DNA from: Hymenobacter setariae
Lineage (GTDB): Bacteria; Bacteroidota; Bacteroidia; Cytophagales; Hymenobacteraceae
Reading direction: 5' to 3'
DNA: 64,000 nucleotides
Assembly: GCF_007713685.1 (NCBI RefSeq)
Contig: NZ_VMRJ01000002.1
Span: forward strand, 868,001 to 932,000
Below, one piece after another: positions 52,978 through 63,036 of the stretch (position 1 is its first letter; each line of letters starts with the position of its first letter). The notes under the pieces are model-generated. The model made no database searches, was not told where the DNA came from, and was given only the letters and a program-made list of their open reading frames with translations. The position numbers were made by a program, and so were the translations under genes.

Positions 52978-53006
52978 AGATCCCCGTATTTTTACGGGGG
53001 GGCCGC

Positions 53007-53675
53007 CTAGGTATCGAGTAAGCCGTGGCGCACTGCGTACACAACTAGGCCTGCCGCATTGGCAGCGCCGGTTTTTTCGAGCATGTGCTGGCGATGGCCT
53101 TCTACTGTGCGGCGGCCCATCACGAGCTGCTCGGCAATCTCGGCCGTGGTGCGGCCTTCGCAGATGAGGCGCAGCACATCAAGCTCGCGCGGGGTGAAGT
53201 GCACCTCCTCGGTGAGAGTCGCCAACACAGGGCGGGTGGGCTGCTGCACGCCCTTGAGCATCGCCTTCGACACGCGCTCGGTGAAGTGGTAGCCCGTGCT
53301 GAGCACGTCTTCGAGGGCCTGGGCAAGCTGTGGCTGGTCTACGTCTTTGGGCAGGTAGCTGCGGGCTCCCAGTTTCATCATTTGAGTGATGAACTTGTCG
53401 GCCGAGAACATAGAGAGCACAATGATTTTGAGGTCGGGAAACTCACCTAGGAGCGCCTGCGCCACGGCTGGCCCATCCATCCCGGGCATTTGCAAGTCGA
53501 GTAGCAGCACATCGGGTAGGCGCTGGCGGCATAGGGCCAGCAACTCGGCAAATTCGCCAGCCTCTACCACCGACTCTACGTAGGGTAGCCCCAGCAAAAT
53601 GTAGCGCATGCCCTGCCGAAACAGCGGGTGGTCGTCGAGCAGCGCTATCTGCACTGGAAAGTCGATGGTTGCCAT
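53007..53675 (-). CDS. NarL/LuxR-family response regulator
   Basis: 222 residues. Receiver domain 1-125 with acidic pair (ALLDDHPLF), phospho-acceptor Asp60 in DVLLLDLQMPGMDG, switch Ser/Thr in IIVLSMFSADK and Lys110 in SYLPKDV. The linker is followed by a LuxR-type HTH (about 160-220: FTPRELDVLRLICEGRTTAEIAEQLVMGRRTVEGHRQHMLEKTGA). Phosphorylation by the upstream kinase should allow DNA binding. Last gene of the five-gene signalling operon; 53 bases from the kinase. Confidence 0.95.
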   Translation of the reverse strand: MATIDFPVQIALLDDHPLFRQGMRYILLGLPYVESVVEAGEFAELLALCRQRLPDVLLLDLQMPGMDGPAVAQALLGEFPDLKIIVLSMFSADKFITQMMKLGARSYLPKDVDQPQLAQALEDVLSTGYHFTERVSKAMLKGVQQPTRPVLATLTEEVHFTPRELDVLRLICEGRTTAEIAEQLVMGRRTVEGHRQHMLEKTGAANAAGLVVYAVRHGLLDT

Positions 53676-53728
53676 GAAGGAAAGAAGCTTGGCGGCTGGC
53701 GCAAAAGCGGTTAACGTAGAAAGGTGCC

Positions 53729-54541
53729 CTAAGTGCTAGGCGAGGTTACTTCCACCACGGTGCGCAGCCCCTGGCCGGGGGCCGACTGTTGGCGCAGGCG
53801 GGCCTGCAGCAGCTGCACACGCACGTCGATGCTACGCAGGCCGGCGCCCTTGGTGGCGGGCTGGCCATCGGTGCCTAGGTGGGTGAGGTCGAAGCCAGGG
53901 CCGTCGTCTTCGACTACCAGCGTGAGCAGCGGGCCACGCTGGCGCAGTAGCACATCGAGGCGGGTGGCGCCGTGGGCGTGCTTCAAGGCGTTGTGAATCA
54001 GCTCCTGGCAAATGCGGTAGAGGGCCAGTTCCTGGGCCAGCGCCAGCGGCTGCGGGTAGTCTACCTCCAGCTCAATGTCTAGGGTGCCGGTTTCGTTGCT
54101 CACATCCACGAGGTGCTGCAGGGCATCGGCTAGGCCATAGCGGGCCAGCACGGCCGGAAAAAGCGAGTGCGAAATACTGCGCACGTCGTGCACGGCGGTG
54201 CTCATTATCTCCTTCACCATGCCAAATAGCTCGGGCCGATTGTCGGTGGGCTGGTCGGCTTCGAGGCGGTTGACCAGCATTTTGGCCGTGGCGATGGTCG
54301 AGCCGATGCCATCGTGCAGGTCGCGCCCGATGCGCTCGCGCTCGTGTTCCTGCGCCTCAATGACGGCGGCTAGCAGCTGCTGTTGGTACTCGGCCTCGGC
54401 GGCGCGCAGGCGCAGCTGCTGCTGCAACAGGCGCTTTTGGTACGTGACCACAAACAACACCAAAGCCCCTGCGGCTAGCAGCATCAGACCGATGCCCGTG
54501 AGCAGTAGCTGCCCAAACTCTACTTCTGCGGGCGCATCCAT
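53729..54541 (-). CDS. Histidine kinase, HisKA_3 type, without sensor domain
   Basis: 270 residues. One membrane helix near the N-terminus (LLLTGIGLMLLAAGALVLFVV), a coiled coil (35-68), then the dimerisation/phosphotransfer box HERERIGRDLHDGIGSTIATAKML with His76 as phospho-site. The ATPase follows: ELIHNALKHA (N box), VVEDDGPGFDL (G1) and KGAGLRSIDVRVQLL (G2). There are almost no residues outside the membrane, so it cannot sense a ligand by itself. The paralogous 7-TM-like proteins encoded just upstream (22-base overlap) are the probable input partners. The partner regulator follows. Confidence 0.93.
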   Translation of the reverse strand: MDAPAEVEFGQLLLTGIGLMLLAAGALVLFVVTYQKRLLQQQLRLRAAEAEYQQQLLAAVIEAQEHERERIGRDLHDGIGSTIATAKMLVNRLEADQPTDNRPELFGMVKEIMSTAVHDVRSISHSLFPAVLARYGLADALQHLVDVSNETGTLDIELEVDYPQPLALAQELALYRICQELIHNALKHAHGATRLDVLLRQRGPLLTLVVEDDGPGFDLTHLGTDGQPATKGAGLRSIDVRVQLLQARLRQQSAPGQGLRTVVEVTSPST

Positions 54542-55182
54542 AAAGCCAGGCCGCAGCCACTGTAAAAGATGAAAAGAAGCAAAACCCGCACTACGCTGAT
54601 AACAACCAGGTTCAGCTGCAACGAACCGTAGTGCAAGAGGTAGTTGCTAAAGAGTGCAATCTGCAAATCGCCCAGGGCGTAGATGGTCATTCCGGCCGAC
54701 ATCCAAAAGAAAGGCTCGTGCCGCAACTGCGTGACTTGTAGCTCGTGGAGCAGCTTGCGAAAGTATAAGCCGGCAAAGCCGAGCATTAACAGGTCGGTAC
54801 TAACCTGCACGGTGGGGGCGTAGCGCACGGCGCCCAGCCCGGCCAGCGTTTCGAGTAGAGCGTAGCTGCTAAACAGACCTAGGACCCACGGCAGGGCTCG
54901 GGCAAACGCCGCCGACCCCAGCACCTGGCGATAGGCCAGCGCCAGCAGCCCTACCTCGCCAATGGCGGCAATAGGTATCAGAAATAGGTTAGACTTTAAA
55001 TGAAATACGCGTATCAGGGCCCTAGAAAGCAACTCTATGAGCACTTCAAAGCCAGCAAAGTAGGTGAGGTAGCGCGAGCTGGCTGGCAGCTGGCGAAAGC
55101 GTGCCGCCCCAATGAGGGTAGCTAAGATGATGACAGCCACAGTTAGCCAACCTAGGGCTAGGTAGAACGTGGGCGTTACCAT
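54520..55182 (-). CDS. Multi-pass (about 7-TM) membrane protein, paralogue B
   Basis: 220 residues, about seven hydrophobic helices and almost no soluble part. Sequence marks: FRQLPASSRYLTYFAGFEVL, NLFLIPIAAIGEVGLLAL, LPWVLGLFSSYALLETL, YAPTVQVSTDLLML, YFRKLLHELQV, FFWMSAGMTIYALGDLQIAL and a tail ALWMRPQK. It is clearly homologous to the product of 55176-55862. No named family is recognised. Gene overlaps: 7 bases with the upstream paralogue and 22 bases with the downstream kinase, so the three are translationally coupled and probably form one complex. Confidence 0.8.
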   Translation of the reverse strand: MVTPTFYLALGWLTVAVIILATLIGAARFRQLPASSRYLTYFAGFEVLIELLSRALIRVFHLKSNLFLIPIAAIGEVGLLALAYRQVLGSAAFARALPWVLGLFSSYALLETLAGLGAVRYAPTVQVSTDLLMLGFAGLYFRKLLHELQVTQLRHEPFFWMSAGMTIYALGDLQIALFSNYLLHYGSLQLNLVVISVVRVLLLFIFYSGCGLALWMRPQK

Positions 55183-55862
55183 GTGCTACGCGAGGTCTCT
55201 AGCGTTTCCTCGGCAGTCAACGCTTTTGCTGGGCGCAGCCACAGCGCTATGCAATAGCAGGTGTAAAGCAGGCCAACAAAAACCGTGTGAATACGCCAAA
55301 TGTAGATGTTGAATTGCTGAGAGTAATTGAGCAGTAGGTAGTTACTGAATAGGGATATCAACAAATTACCTAAGGAAGTAAGGACTAAGCCTGCCGATAT
55401 CCAAAAAAGAGGGTCGCGTTCGAGGCGCGCTACTTGGAGTTCATTAAGCTGCTTGCGGAAATACATGCCGCCTAGGTATAAGGAAAGCAAGTCGCTCATA
55501 ACCTGTAGGCTAGGCCGGAAGCGCACGGTGCCCGGCACCAGTAGCGTGTCGAGCAGTGCGTAAGCTGTTAGGAAGCCGACTATCCAAGGAGCCACGCGCT
55601 GTAGCCAAGCAGACTGGAGCGCTCGGGTGTAAAGCAAAAGCATTAACCCAGCTTCGCCCACTATCACAATTGGAAAGAGAAATAAGTTAGGCCTTTTGAA
55701 GTATTGCAGCAGTGAGCCAGTGCTTTCCATGATGGCATCGAAGCAGAGGAGTAGCACGAGCGCGCGCAGACTAGGCGGCAGCTGGCGAAAGCACATAATA
55801 CCCCAGATGCTGGCGATAATAACCAGCGTCATAGGGGTATTATAAAGGATAGAACTGAGCAT
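55176..55862 (-). CDS. Multi-pass (about 7-TM) membrane protein, paralogue A
   Basis: 228 residues from the ATG at 55862 (the frame reaches a TTG at 55877). Helices include MTLVIIASIWGIMCF, LVLLLCFDAIMESTGSLL, LFLFPIVIVGEAGLMLLL, WIVGFLTAYALLDTLL and LVLTSLGNLLISLFSNYLLL. It shares with paralogue B the positions FRQLP-S-R, NLFL-PI-GE-GL, PW-G-YALL-TL, V-R-P-QV-DLL, YFRK-L-ELQV, FW-SAG and LFSNYLL. The conserved YFRK-x-LxELQV between helices could be the face that contacts the kinase. Function unknown; it lies 33 bases after the unknown first gene. Confidence 0.8.
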   Translation of the reverse strand: MLSSILYNTPMTLVIIASIWGIMCFRQLPPSLRALVLLLCFDAIMESTGSLLQYFKRPNLFLFPIVIVGEAGLMLLLYTRALQSAWLQRVAPWIVGFLTAYALLDTLLVPGTVRFRPSLQVMSDLLSLYLGGMYFRKQLNELQVARLERDPLFWISAGLVLTSLGNLLISLFSNYLLLNYSQQFNIYIWRIHTVFVGLLYTCYCIALWLRPAKALTAEETLETSRSTW

Positions 55863-55895
55863 ATGCAAAGTGTGCAAAGAAGCAGTGCAGTAGGA

Positions 55896-56642
55896 CTAGC
55901 CTGGGGGGTAAGGCTTTGACATGTCGTAAGATGGCCCGCTCAATTCGTCGCCATCTGCTTCGTCGCTGGGCGAGTACAGGCGCACCACCAGCCCAAACGT
56001 CTGAGCCGGGGCGGCCAAGCTTTCGGGGTAGGCGGGGTAGTAGGCTTTCAGGCCGAAGCGAAGAAACAGGCGCTGGTTGGTGAAGGTCTTGGCCGCAAAA
56101 AGCGGGTCCAGAAAGTCGCCTAGGTCGAAGTTGTACCCTTGCAGTGGCCCGTAGGAAGTGGCAAAGAGCGCCGGCCGTAGCTGCTGCGTGGTGGCTGCGG
56201 TGGTCCAGCCATTGAGCCACCCCTTTATCAGATTGTAAGGCACCAAACCGCCAACAGCCGCGAGCTGCTGAGGCTCGACGGTTTGCCAGTTCGCATCGCT
56301 TTGGTAGTAGGCTGATAGGCGCGCGCCCCGCTGGTCGGCGGCGTAGAGCACCAGCCGAAAGCGCGGTGCGGCCGGCTTATCGACACCTACCTCGGCCGGG
56401 GGCAGCAGCACAAAGCGCGCCGCTACCTGGGCAATGCCCGGTGTAGACAACATAGCTACTAGGTAGCTCGGGTCGGTGGGAGTGCTCGTCAGGCCAAAGC
56501 TTGCACTGACCTGGTACTGATTGATGGCGGGGGCGCTGGCCTGAAAGAGCGCCTGCACCTCGGCAGGCGAGGCGCCTTGGATAAAGTTCGTCCAGGCGGC
56601 GGCTACGGTATCAAACTCCGATTGAGTAAGTATTTTCTCCAT
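55896..56642 (-). CDS. Unknown protein heading the signalling operon, 248 residues
   Basis: No signal peptide and no membrane helix. It starts MEKILTQSEFDTVAAAWTNFIQG. The middle holds RFRLVLYAADQRGARLSAYYQSD and a Pro/Ala-rich loop, and later FATSYGPLQGYNFDLGDFLDPLF and a C-terminal FGLKAYYPAYPESLAAP followed by an acidic tail. No family is recognised. It has one of the clearest promoters in the window (56704-56733) and precedes the membrane pair by 33 bases, so it is probably co-produced with the sensor system. It might supply or modify the signal, or be a cytosolic partner. Confidence 0.7.
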   Translation of the reverse strand: MEKILTQSEFDTVAAAWTNFIQGASPAEVQALFQASAPAINQYQVSASFGLTSTPTDPSYLVAMLSTPGIAQVAARFVLLPPAEVGVDKPAAPRFRLVLYAADQRGARLSAYYQSDANWQTVEPQQLAAVGGLVPYNLIKGWLNGWTTAATTQQLRPALFATSYGPLQGYNFDLGDFLDPLFAAKTFTNQRLFLRFGLKAYYPAYPESLAAPAQTFGLVVRLYSPSDEADGDELSGPSYDMSKPYPPG

Positions 56643-56703
56643 ACAATGAGAAATAAGCTACTTAATTGACTGAAGTAATAGAAGCGCTAAAAATTGGGTA
56701 CTT

Positions 56704-56733
56704 CAAAGGTAGGTACAGCGTTGGCCCAGCCAA
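56704..56733 (-). promoter_or_regulatory. Promoter of the five-gene signalling operon
   Basis: On the minus strand TTTTG, with its TTG at 56733-56731, 19 bases, then TACCTTTG (56711-56704). A full match to TTG-N19-TAnnTTTG. The leader to the start codon at 56642 is about 55 bases. Confidence 0.85.
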
Positions 56734-61134: not shown

Positions 61135-63036
61135 CTAGTATAGCACCCGGAACTTGATGGTGTGCTCGACTTCGCGCAGGGCCTGAATCACGTCTTGGTC
61201 GTAGGCCTTGTCGATATCCGTAATCACGTAGCCCACCAGCTCGTTGGTTTTCAGGTACTGACCTAGGATGTTAACGTGGTGCGCGGCCAGCACATTGTTG
61301 ATTTTGGCCAGCACGCCGGGCACGTTGGCGTGAATGTGGATGAGGCGGTGCGCCTGCTGCGACGGCAGCAGAATGTTGGGGAAGTTGACGCTCTGCTGGG
61401 TGTTGCCGGTGTTGATGTACTGCATGATGCGCTCGGGCACAAACTCGGCAATGTTGCGCTGCGCCTCGGCCGTGCTGCCGCCAATGTGTGGCGTCAGCAG
61501 CACGTTGGGCAGGCCGCGCAGCTCACTTTCAAACACCTCCTGGTTGGTTTTGGGCTCGTAGGGAAATACGTCGATGGCGGCGCCCCCTAGGTGGCCATTG
61601 TGGAGCACTTCGGCCAGCGCGGGCACGTCTACCACGTGGCCGCGGGCGTTGTTGATGAACAGCGCGCCGGGCTTCATGAGGGCAAAATGCTTAGCGCCGA
61701 AGAAATTCTTGTTTTCGGGGCGGCCGTCGATGTGCAGCGTCACGATGTCGGCCTGGGGCAACAGTTCTTCGAGCGTGTTTACTTTGGTGGCATTGCCGAG
61801 CTGCAGCTTTTCGGCCACGTCGTAGTACAGTACCTTGAGGCCTAGCGCCTCAGCTACCACCGAGAGCTGTGCCCCGATGTTGCCATAGCCAATGATGCCG
61901 AGCGTTTTGCCGCGCACCTCAAACGCACCTTTGGCCGATTTGTCCCACTCGCCTAGGTGCATCTTGGGGTTCTTTTCGGGAATGCGGCGGGCCAGCACAA
62001 TGAGTTCGGCCAAGGTCAGCTCAACCACCGAGCGGGTGTTCGAAAACGGGGCGTTGAACACGGCCACACCCTTGCGCATGGCGGCGGGCAGGTCTATCTG
62101 GTTGGTGCCGATGCAAAACGCGCCGATGGCAATGAGGCGGTTGGCAGCAGCCAGCACGCGCTCGGTCACGTTGGTTTTAGAGCGGATGCCGAGGATGCTC
62201 ACGCCCTCAATGCGGGCAATGAGTTCTTCTTCATCGAGGGCGCCGGGCACCAGCTCCACCTGGTAGCCTTCCTGGCGGAAGAGCTCGGCGGCGCGGGCAT
62301 CGGGGTTTTCGAGCAGCAATACCTTGATGCGATTCTTGGGGTAGCTCAGGGTCATGGGTAGCTTCAATTGGTACAAAAACTCATCAAAAGTCGGCAGCAC
62401 CTCATCGGCGCGGGCGATAACGGTGGGGCGGGCTACGTTTTCGGTGTAAGCGTAAAAACGCTTGGCCAGGCCAGCTTCCCGAATCTGGTAGTCGGTGTAG
62501 CCATCGCCGAGCACGTACACGGGGCCGTCGAGCTGCAAGTCTTTCAGCTGCTGAATCTTGCCACCGTCGCGGCTCAGTACGTTGCCCGCGTCGCAGCCCG
62601 TAATGGCCCCGCCCTCGTCGAAGGTGAAGGTATTGGCTAGCACATGGTCGGCCGCAATGCCAAACTCGGCTACCACGGGCTCGATAAACTCGCGAAAGCC
62701 GCTGCTCACCACATAAATACGGTCGGCGTACTGCCGGAAGAAGTCGCCGTTGCGGCGGATGCTTTCGCTCACTTTGCCTTGCAGCTGCTGCACCAGTGGC
62801 CCTAGGTGCTGCCGGTGCGCCCCCAGCAGCGCCAGCCGCTTGCTCAAGGATTCCTGAAAGCCAATTTCGCCAGCCATGCCCTGGTCGGTGAGGGCCTTGA
62901 TGGCGGCCACGCGGGTGGCTTGGTCGGGCTGGCCCGTGAGGGCAATAGCAGCAAGCTCATCGAGGCCTTCGACCTGTGTAAAGGTTGAGTCGAAGTCGAA
63001 AACGAGGTAGGGGAGGGGGGCAGCGGGGTCAGGCAT
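61135..63036 (-). CDS. serA: Fused phosphoserine phosphatase - D-3-phosphoglycerate dehydrogenase
   Basis: 633 residues in three parts. Residues 1-225 are a HAD phosphoserine phosphatase: VFDFDSTFTQVEGLDEL (Asp14/Asp16), VVSSGF (Ser111), GGKIQQL (Lys160) and GDGYTDYQ (Asp178). Residues of about 235-555 are the dehydrogenase: IRSKTNVTERVLAAANRL, NAPFSNTRSVVELTLAE, GIIGYGNIGAQ (NAD loop), INNARGHVVD (Arg) and LLTPHIGGSTAEAQ (His). The last ~75 residues are an ACT domain (HANVPGVLAKINNVLAAHHVNI) for serine feedback. The first and last steps of serine synthesis are thus on one chain; the transaminase SerC is not in the window. All key residues are intact in both halves. Confidence 0.93.
   Translation of the reverse strand: MPDPAAPLPYLVFDFDSTFTQVEGLDELAAIALTGQPDQATRVAAIKALTDQGMAGEIGFQESLSKRLALLGAHRQHLGPLVQQLQGKVSESIRRNGDFFRQYADRIYVVSSGFREFIEPVVAEFGIAADHVLANTFTFDEGGAITGCDAGNVLSRDGGKIQQLKDLQLDGPVYVLGDGYTDYQIREAGLAKRFYAYTENVARPTVIARADEVLPTFDEFLYQLKLPMTLSYPKNRIKVLLLENPDARAAELFRQEGYQVELVPGALDEEELIARIEGVSILGIRSKTNVTERVLAAANRLIAIGAFCIGTNQIDLPAAMRKGVAVFNAPFSNTRSVVELTLAELIVLARRIPEKNPKMHLGEWDKSAKGAFEVRGKTLGIIGYGNIGAQLSVVAEALGLKVLYYDVAEKLQLGNATKVNTLEELLPQADIVTLHIDGRPENKNFFGAKHFALMKPGALFINNARGHVVDVPALAEVLHNGHLGGAAIDVFPYEPKTNQEVFESELRGLPNVLLTPHIGGSTAEAQRNIAEFVPERIMQYINTGNTQQSVNFPNILLPSQQAHRLIHIHANVPGVLAKINNVLAAHHVNILGQYLKTNELVGYVITDIDKAYDQDVIQALREVEHTIKFRVLY

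Follow-up and report, generated by a model that had tools for sequence, protein, structure and literature searches.

A putative split-receptor two-component operon joining seven-helix membrane proteins to a sensor-less histidine kinase in Hymenobacter setariae

In the UhpC-UhpB-UhpA system a separate membrane sensor, the major-facilitator carrier UhpC, works with a HisKA_3 kinase and a NarL-type regulator, and LiaS is a HisKA_3-class kinase with hardly any sensing domain, as is the kinase studied here. This kinase is encoded in a five-gene operon within a stretch of 64,000 nucleotides from Hymenobacter setariae (contig NZ_VMRJ01000002.1, positions 868,001 to 932,000), referred to below as the window. 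LiaF is reported to inhibit LiaRS (PMC3543457, PMC7191749), sensory rhodopsin II is a receptor of seven helices whose membrane transducer, HtrII, is a separate protein feeding a pathway homologous to two-component systems (PMC5292967, PMC12917780), and BtsS is called, by title, a 7-transmembrane receptor binding pyruvate (PMC10653868).

A sequence-only reading of the window had described an operon for an unknown soluble protein (here P0), two homologous seven-transmembrane (7-TM) proteins (A and B), a histidine kinase and a response regulator, and had proposed that the 7-TM proteins sense while the kinase transmits. The layout holds in this Hymenobacter genome: all five genes lie on the minus strand, from 56642 to 53007, and the overlaps of 7 bases between A and B and of 22 bases between B and the kinase gene are as claimed (Table 1). 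The conserved core across Bacteroidota has the order tail protein, 7-TM protein, single-TM sensor-less kinase and regulator, where P0 is the tail protein of the window. We interpret the operon, at a probability of roughly 0.6, as a split-receptor two-component system in which the 7-TM protein senses, the kinase transmits and the tail protein serves the 7-TM protein as its cognate partner. Linkage seen from the 7-TM, the tail and the kinase sides supports the proposed split. Among titles and abstract starts of the open-access literature, no description of a tail-7TM-kinase-regulator cassette was found.

In the mechanism that we propose, the membrane receptor would be the 7-TM protein, B together with its duplicate A, which lacks a kinase domain of its own. 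Its signal would be relayed laterally between helices to the single transmembrane helix of the kinase dimer, which would then phosphorylate the NarL-type regulator. P0 would dock on the 7-TM protein through its short C-terminal motif and set the state of the receptor, and A may act as a second receptor of other specificity.

Table 1. Genes and sequence elements of the operon (window coordinates; aa, amino acids)
Feature	Position	Strand	Remarks
P0, tail protein, 248 aa	55896..56642	-	~105 aa domain, apparently duplicated in tandem; without N-terminal hydrophobic segment
C-terminal tail of P0, YDMSKPYPPG	55899..55928	-	degenerate form of [YF]D-x-[SA]-x-P-C-P-P-x-C
A, 7-TM protein	55176..55877 (open reading frame from TTG, 233 aa); likelier 55176..55862 (from ATG, ~228 aa)	-	
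B, 7-TM protein, 220 aa	54520..55182	-	conserved copy; adjoins the kinase gene
Sensor-less histidine kinase, 270 aa	53729..54541	-	one N-terminal TM helix, HisKA_3 with H76, HATPase_c
NarL/LuxR-type response regulator, 222 aa	53007..53675	-	Response_reg and GerE (Pfam)
Overlap of the B and kinase genes, 22 bases	54520..54541	-	
Bacteroidota-type promoter string TTG-N19-TACCTTTG	56704..56733	-	61 bases ahead of the P0 start codon

Linkage across Bacteroidota seen from three genes

The kinase carries HisKA_3 at residues 67-131 and HATPase_c at residues 171-265, both above the Pfam cut-offs and without a further domain, and one hydrophobic helix at residues 14-32, which agrees with its earlier description as a single-helix kinase lacking a sensing domain. 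H76 is the phospho-accepting histidine, and the N and G box strings are present. With its NarL/LuxR regulator, which keeps the usual residues as the kinase does, it forms a two-component pair whose domains all score above Pfam cut-offs. The window genome encodes six HisKA_3 kinases, of which this one alone has a short open frame.

We searched from the 7-TM side with a profile of the family (A1), which identified 52 places in 39 of 395 Bacteroidota genomes. These places form 47 loci, and in 45 of them a kinase is next in the operon. Among the 40 regions first retrieved (42 A1 places), the kinase profile finds a kinase in the operon in 36, with a further 7-TM or tail gene between in L155, L164 and L181. 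Three more have other kinase types by Pfam, namely PAS and HATPase_c in L151, PAS, HisKA and HATPase_c in L165, and His_kinase followed by a LytTR regulator in L163; L169 has none. Kinase and regulator are also present in L355 and L357, the 7-TM frame of L355 being interrupted by stops, and the seven A1 places in the window genome (G000), G005 and G011 form four loci, all with a kinase. The 7-TM family is found paired with three kinase types: HisKA_3, PAS-HisKA and LytS-type.

A collection of 165 distinct 7-TM genes, which leans to Hymenobacter and includes a few shortened copies of the window genes, gives a similar view. A kinase lies directly next to 115 of them, beyond another 7-TM gene for 22 and within 2.6 kb for one; the regulator is next for 10, two stand at a locus edge, and 15 were initially scored as kinase-less. 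On reading, six of these 15 have a kinase (L151, L163, three in L165 and one in L067). The 22-base overlap between 7-TM and kinase genes recurs in 48 of the 73 distinct loci for which our script placed the kinase start, mostly in Hymenobacter, and likely reflects translational coupling of B and the kinase.

From the tail side, a profile built from ten short tail proteins (A7) matched 26 of 247 genomes, at 34 places in all. A seven-helix gene lies downstream of every one; in 33 cases it reaches an E value of 2e-6 or better with the 7-TM profile, and in L274 (E 0.8) it was called by helix count. Four places had served as A7 seeds and the 7-TM search had already found seven; the 23 new ones (22 distinct loci, L252 being identical to L275) constitute an independent test. 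Beyond the 7-TM gene, 30 A7 loci show a kinase by profile in 25, a second 7-TM gene in three (L247, L254 and L268) and a one-helix protein without profile match in L250 and L273, that of L273 being the PAS kinase of L151; the other four A7 places have both kinase and regulator. Within the genus, 35 of 81 genomes carry P0 itself, with 41 places and 40 genes in total; the next gene is a 7-TM gene at every place, and 29 of 30 P0 loci continue with a kinase or a second 7-TM gene, the kinase of L214 having been lost.

From the kinase side, we sampled kinase-profile matches with open frames of up to 320 aa in 26 genomes (n = 12, one being the window). Upstream of 11 of these 12 short kinases lies a gene of 202-220 aa with six to seven predicted TM helices, directly in ten cases and with a tail gene between in L340; in L346 it falls below the 7-TM profile and was called by helix count. 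All 11 loci have a further protein of 116-251 aa ahead of the 7-TM gene, and those of L341, L345, L346 and L349 end in tail-related strings. L342 alone departs from this pattern: it lacks a 7-TM gene, and its N-terminus is signal-like. A 7-TM gene is also absent from the control L350, a kinase of 360 aa above the length limit. On plasmids, a search with B identified one record, Spirosoma oryzicola plasmid NZ_CP089539.1 (L308), which carries the tail-7TM-kinase-regulator order a few genes after RND efflux genes, with the tail and 7-TM genes annotated as hypothetical proteins; a plasmid search with the tail protein of L164 gave no match.

Protein families, the A slot and flanking sequence

A and B are paralogues, as had been claimed, with 43% identity over 206 residues (E 2e-54). 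Pfam has no family above cut-off for A, B or 18 further members, NCBIfam lists none for A and B, and the 7-TM profile has no relative among PDB sequences up to an E value of 1. A, B and P0 are also without match above cut-off in PHROGs and PADLOC, on which ground a phage or defence role for the three was rejected; one small tail protein likewise matches neither collection.

The AlphaFold model of B predicts seven helices (pLDDT 91.4). Its top Foldseek matches are G-protein-coupled receptors (GPCRs) and microbial rhodopsins, the best at E 0.042, probability 1.00 and TM-score 0.52. VIA-align gives a best Z of 14.3 (rmsd 3.6, 211 aligned residues) with the class T GPCR 7xp6, a range in which, by the tool's own warning, a Z of about 13 may reflect a mere helical-bundle arrangement. 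The modelled helix arrangement thus appears GPCR- or rhodopsin-like, with common descent unproven. Residues N65, E76, P157, F159 and W160 are conserved, and the invariant columns of the A1 alignment hold no Cys, His or Asp. Conservation peaks in intracellular loop 1 (0.69), extracellular loop 1 (0.70) and the end of TM5 with intracellular loop 3 (0.73) and is lowest in TM1 (0.38); together with loop Arg and Lys residues it suggests an outside N-terminus and an inside C-terminus.

Identity with the microbial rhodopsins was rejected, as the retinal Schiff-base lysine of mid helix 7 was not found in 39 alignment rows: at residues 189-216 no position holds Lys in more than two rows, and Lys occurs in nine of the 39 rows at residue 188, the start of helix 7. 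Homology to HisKA_7TM (PF16927) was also rejected, with an hhalign probability of 0.4% over 20 columns against an alignment of 13 PF16927 members. By Pfam scan alone, neither 7TMR-DISM_7TM, 5TM-5TMR_LYT nor another Pfam 7-TM sensor domain appears up to an E value of 1 for A, B and the 18 members.

P0 still has no family assignment, as the sequence-only reading had it, but it turns out to be a conserved member of the cassette with a recurring C-terminal motif, which that reading had missed. It has no match above cut-off in Pfam or NCBIfam, and its profile has no PDB sequence relative up to an E value of 1. Its model (pLDDT 82) shows a predicted secondary structure that repeats in order along the chain; Foldseek returns no fold relative under E 0.1, and the best VIA-align Z, 4.5, covers part of the model and is not trusted. 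Compared by hhalign, the small tail profile A7 matches the N-terminal half of P0 (P 2.6e-5, probability 75), the C-terminal half including the tail (P 4.9e-4, probability 32) and the whole protein twice (probabilities 70 and 68), and the two halves match each other weakly (P 8e-4, probability 24); a direct A7 search of the window genome gave no match at E 0.001. These comparisons are supportive, if not overwhelming, of P0 being a doubled form of the ~105-residue small tail domain.

The A7 members share A23, R62, Y64, C99, P100 and C103, and the tail consensus reads [YF]D-x-[ST]-x-P-C-P-P-x-C or decayed versions of it. Several upstream genes have such decayed versions, for example VYDGARPVPPYGD or NHGQIYP, and the upstream genes of L173 and L186 have no recognisable tail. 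Among 33 P0 tails, P-x-P is kept in 32, PCP in 23 and both cysteines in 11. Because few P0 tails keep both cysteines while P-x-P is nearly universal, the motif is probably not simply a metal or disulfide site, which weakens a zinc or disulfide role for the cysteines. CPxxC-type endings, a pattern chosen after the tails had been seen, occur in 21 of 39 genes upstream of 7-TM genes in the phylum sample, where four upstream genes without an open reading frame (ORF) in the script range were scored as misses, versus three of 260 control ORFs (Fisher P 1e-18). A loose tail pattern stands upstream of 71 of 146 7-TM genes, with some wrong ORFs on both sides. Tandem tail-7TM units precede a single kinase in L066, L155 and L164. 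Taken together, the linkage makes the tail protein a likely partner of the 7-TM protein. Some tail proteins are lipoprotein-like: L067 4695-5438, L163 3736-4272 (by eye), L179 3729-4157 and L181 3494-4243.

A heteromeric 7-TM pair had been put forward as the sensing principle, and the wider sample does not support it as such. One 7-TM gene is the rule, found in 106 of 121 distinct operons, with two in 6 and three in 9; the count covers loci of at least 7 kb with profile-detected 7-TM genes, leans to Hymenobacter and excludes the window (among the shorter loci) and L309-L361. The suggested search for the order 7TM-7TM-kinase-regulator does find it, but as a five-gene order with two 7-TM genes in three genomes, represented by the window, L105 and L305 (G594), where the usual order among relatives is P0, one 7-TM gene, kinase and regulator. 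In the 7-TM tree, the A and B genes of the window group with those of L105 in a single clade (SH-aLRT 97), and the triple 7-TM arrays branch elsewhere. In Hymenobacter relatives, operons that carry a pair or a triplet of 7-TM genes (L033-L038, L047, L066-L069 and L155) often end in a regulator of 132-161 aa; the one encoded in the triple array L034 consists of a receiver domain without a DNA-binding domain.

The first 7-TM slot has diverged much further than its neighbours. Between the window (55176-55877) and L105 (5983-6687), A shows a synonymous divergence (dS) of 2.12 and 48% amino acid identity, versus dS values of 0.42-0.89 for P0, B, the kinase, the regulator and both flanking genes. 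A is about as distant from its L105 counterpart as from B, and B and P0 are 86% and 85% identical to their counterparts. As an observation from two genomes only, this suggests that A was replaced or that different copies of an older array were retained. The ATG at 55862 fits the 7-TM alignment better than the TTG at 55877 and is the likelier start of A.

A single promoter had been proposed to drive the operon. The string is indeed present at 56733-56704, but the window holds five such strings versus about two expected from a first-order Markov sequence, so that the promoter is plausible but the string alone is no evidence for it. An inverted repeat, CCCCGTA/TACGGGG, lies at window 52982-53000 directly after the regulator gene as a possible terminator. 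Elsewhere in the window, a single minus-strand ORF at 61135-63036 with HAD phosphatase, 2-hydroxyacid dehydrogenase and ACT domains resembles a SerB-SerA fusion, and an Rfam scan of the window gave a tRNA as its sole match.

A split receptor and its rivals

The split receptor is the best reading because linkage is seen from three sides, the exact overlap is conserved (48/73) and the kinase is swapped between types. Frequent occurrence of 7-TM genes without any kinase, named by the sequence-only reading as the observation that would tell against it, is not what we find: 10 of the 163 non-edge genes are kinase-less, and nine more stand beside a PhoB/PhoR-like pair. These cases, and several other observations, nevertheless weigh against a split receptor. 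The kinase-less genes are those of L039, L056, L057, L070, L072, L092, L093, L094 and L169, together with L082 of H. ginkgonis, where tail, 7-TM and regulator genes are kept and the kinase is lost. The nine genes beside the PhoB/PhoR-like pair form one clade (L049, L051, L060-L064, L112 and L113), without the loose tail pattern upstream; the PhoB-like regulator and HisKA kinase that follow were assigned by Pfam on L060 only. A second kind of locus lacking the kinase is L356 1252-3397 (G282), where two 7-TM genes come after a lipoprotein-like gene whose product ends in GGGAPPPYN and are not followed by a kinase. In the ten 7-TM-bearing loci of the kinase-side sample besides the window, the upstream protein reaches the tail profile in L339 and L340 only; it is less clear in L343, and in L344, L347 and L348 it is without a clear P-x-P-P tail. 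The window tail YDMSKPYPPG is cysteine-free. A simple heuristic finds no export signal in 52 of 60 tail proteins and a signal or lipobox in eight, which leaves the membrane side ambiguous. None of 1027 profile-matched ORFs is a fusion of a 7-TM protein with a kinase, regulator or tail protein. Operon linkage alone is no proof of a complex, and the models are of single chains.

A kinase-less 7-TM clade (L053, L056, L057 and L094) stands beside a gene that, by eye, resembles a muramate ligase, a case of the family being used without a kinase. In Hymenobacter sp. BRD67 (L091/L306) the kinase is broken into two ORFs, a natural kinase loss like that of L082.

One could go further and see here a GPCR-like Bacteroidota receptor acting in trans and paired with exchangeable kinases of the HisKA_3, PAS-HisKA and LytS types, with the tail protein as its polypeptide agonist, the C-terminal motif entering or docking on the seven-helix bundle, and slots like A swapped for specificity; we offer this as a tentative idea that may well be wrong. 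Peptide-type cell-cell signalling, modelled on AgrD/AgrC and ComX/ComP, is possible though rather unlikely. The tail protein would then give rise to or carry an exported signal, formed by its C-terminal motif, and the 7-TM protein would be the receptor for it, which would suit a dedicated small protein upstream of the receptor in most loci, a tail that is its most recurrent part, and the tandem tail-7TM units before one kinase. The dS of 2.12 in the A slot versus 0.42-0.89 for its neighbours is likewise what specificity switching would produce; yet conservation of the would-be ligand P0 (85%) matches that of B, with A the one that diverges, most tail proteins (52/60) lack an export signal, and no linked protease or exporter was noticed in the ORFs read by eye, no search having been aimed at one.

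The kinase might instead read the state of a 7-TM protein that is an enzyme or carrier and has the tail protein as substrate or maturation factor. Coupling of kinases to carriers is a familiar theme, with UhpC read by UhpB as the model, microbial rhodopsin pumps are among the fold matches, and the family is uncharacterised with conserved N65, E76, P157, F159 and W160. However, the invariant columns lack Cys, His and Asp, the fold matches listed are GPCRs and microbial rhodopsins, and the 18 members belong to no Pfam family above cut-off, so that we regard an enzyme or carrier as unlikely. That the kinase has a cytoplasmic input or is constitutive, with the 7-TM and tail genes as mere operon neighbours, would fit the 7-TM genes that exist without a kinase, and contact between the 7-TM protein and the kinase is indeed something we infer; but phylum-wide linkage from three sides, a recurring exact overlap and three kinase types are hard to explain in that way, and we consider it very improbable.

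Many Bacteroidota kinases seem sensor-less, and the split-receptor reading offers a rule for them, namely that the likely sensor is the gene just upstream. It also adds two unclassified protein families, 7-TM and tail, to a signalling cassette. Should the 7-TM protein prove to be the receptor, evolution would have recombined receptor and kinase as separate chains, and signal transfer from a seven-helix bundle to a single kinase helix would become directly testable.

Comparison with known systems

One-chain 7-TM kinases (HisKA_7TM PF16927, LytS/BtsS type and 7TMR-DISM) likewise combine a seven-helix input with a histidine kinase output. Here, in contrast, the two parts are separate genes, without profile relation to HisKA_7TM and without a Pfam match. 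Sensory rhodopsin II-HtrII resembles the locus in pairing a seven-helix receptor with a separate membrane partner; it differs in that the window family lacks the retinal lysine in mid helix 7 and the partner is the kinase itself.

LiaF-LiaS-LiaR shares with the operon a NarL-class regulator and, on the reading proposed here, an accessory membrane protein controlling the kinase. The partner here, however, has seven TM helices and belongs to no known family, the kinase has one N-terminal TM helix and a tail protein is added. The kinase scores 83.1 bits versus the LiaS cut-off of 450, and A, B and the 18 members have no Pfam family above cut-off, which places the operon outside LiaFSR. It also falls outside UhpABC, with a kinase score of 92.2 bits versus the UhpB cut-off of 408 and no major-facilitator match for A, B and the 18 members. 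The likeness to UhpABC lies in the architecture, a separate membrane sensor acting with a HisKA_3 kinase and a NarL-type regulator, which is the arrangement that we propose for the 7-TM protein and its kinase.

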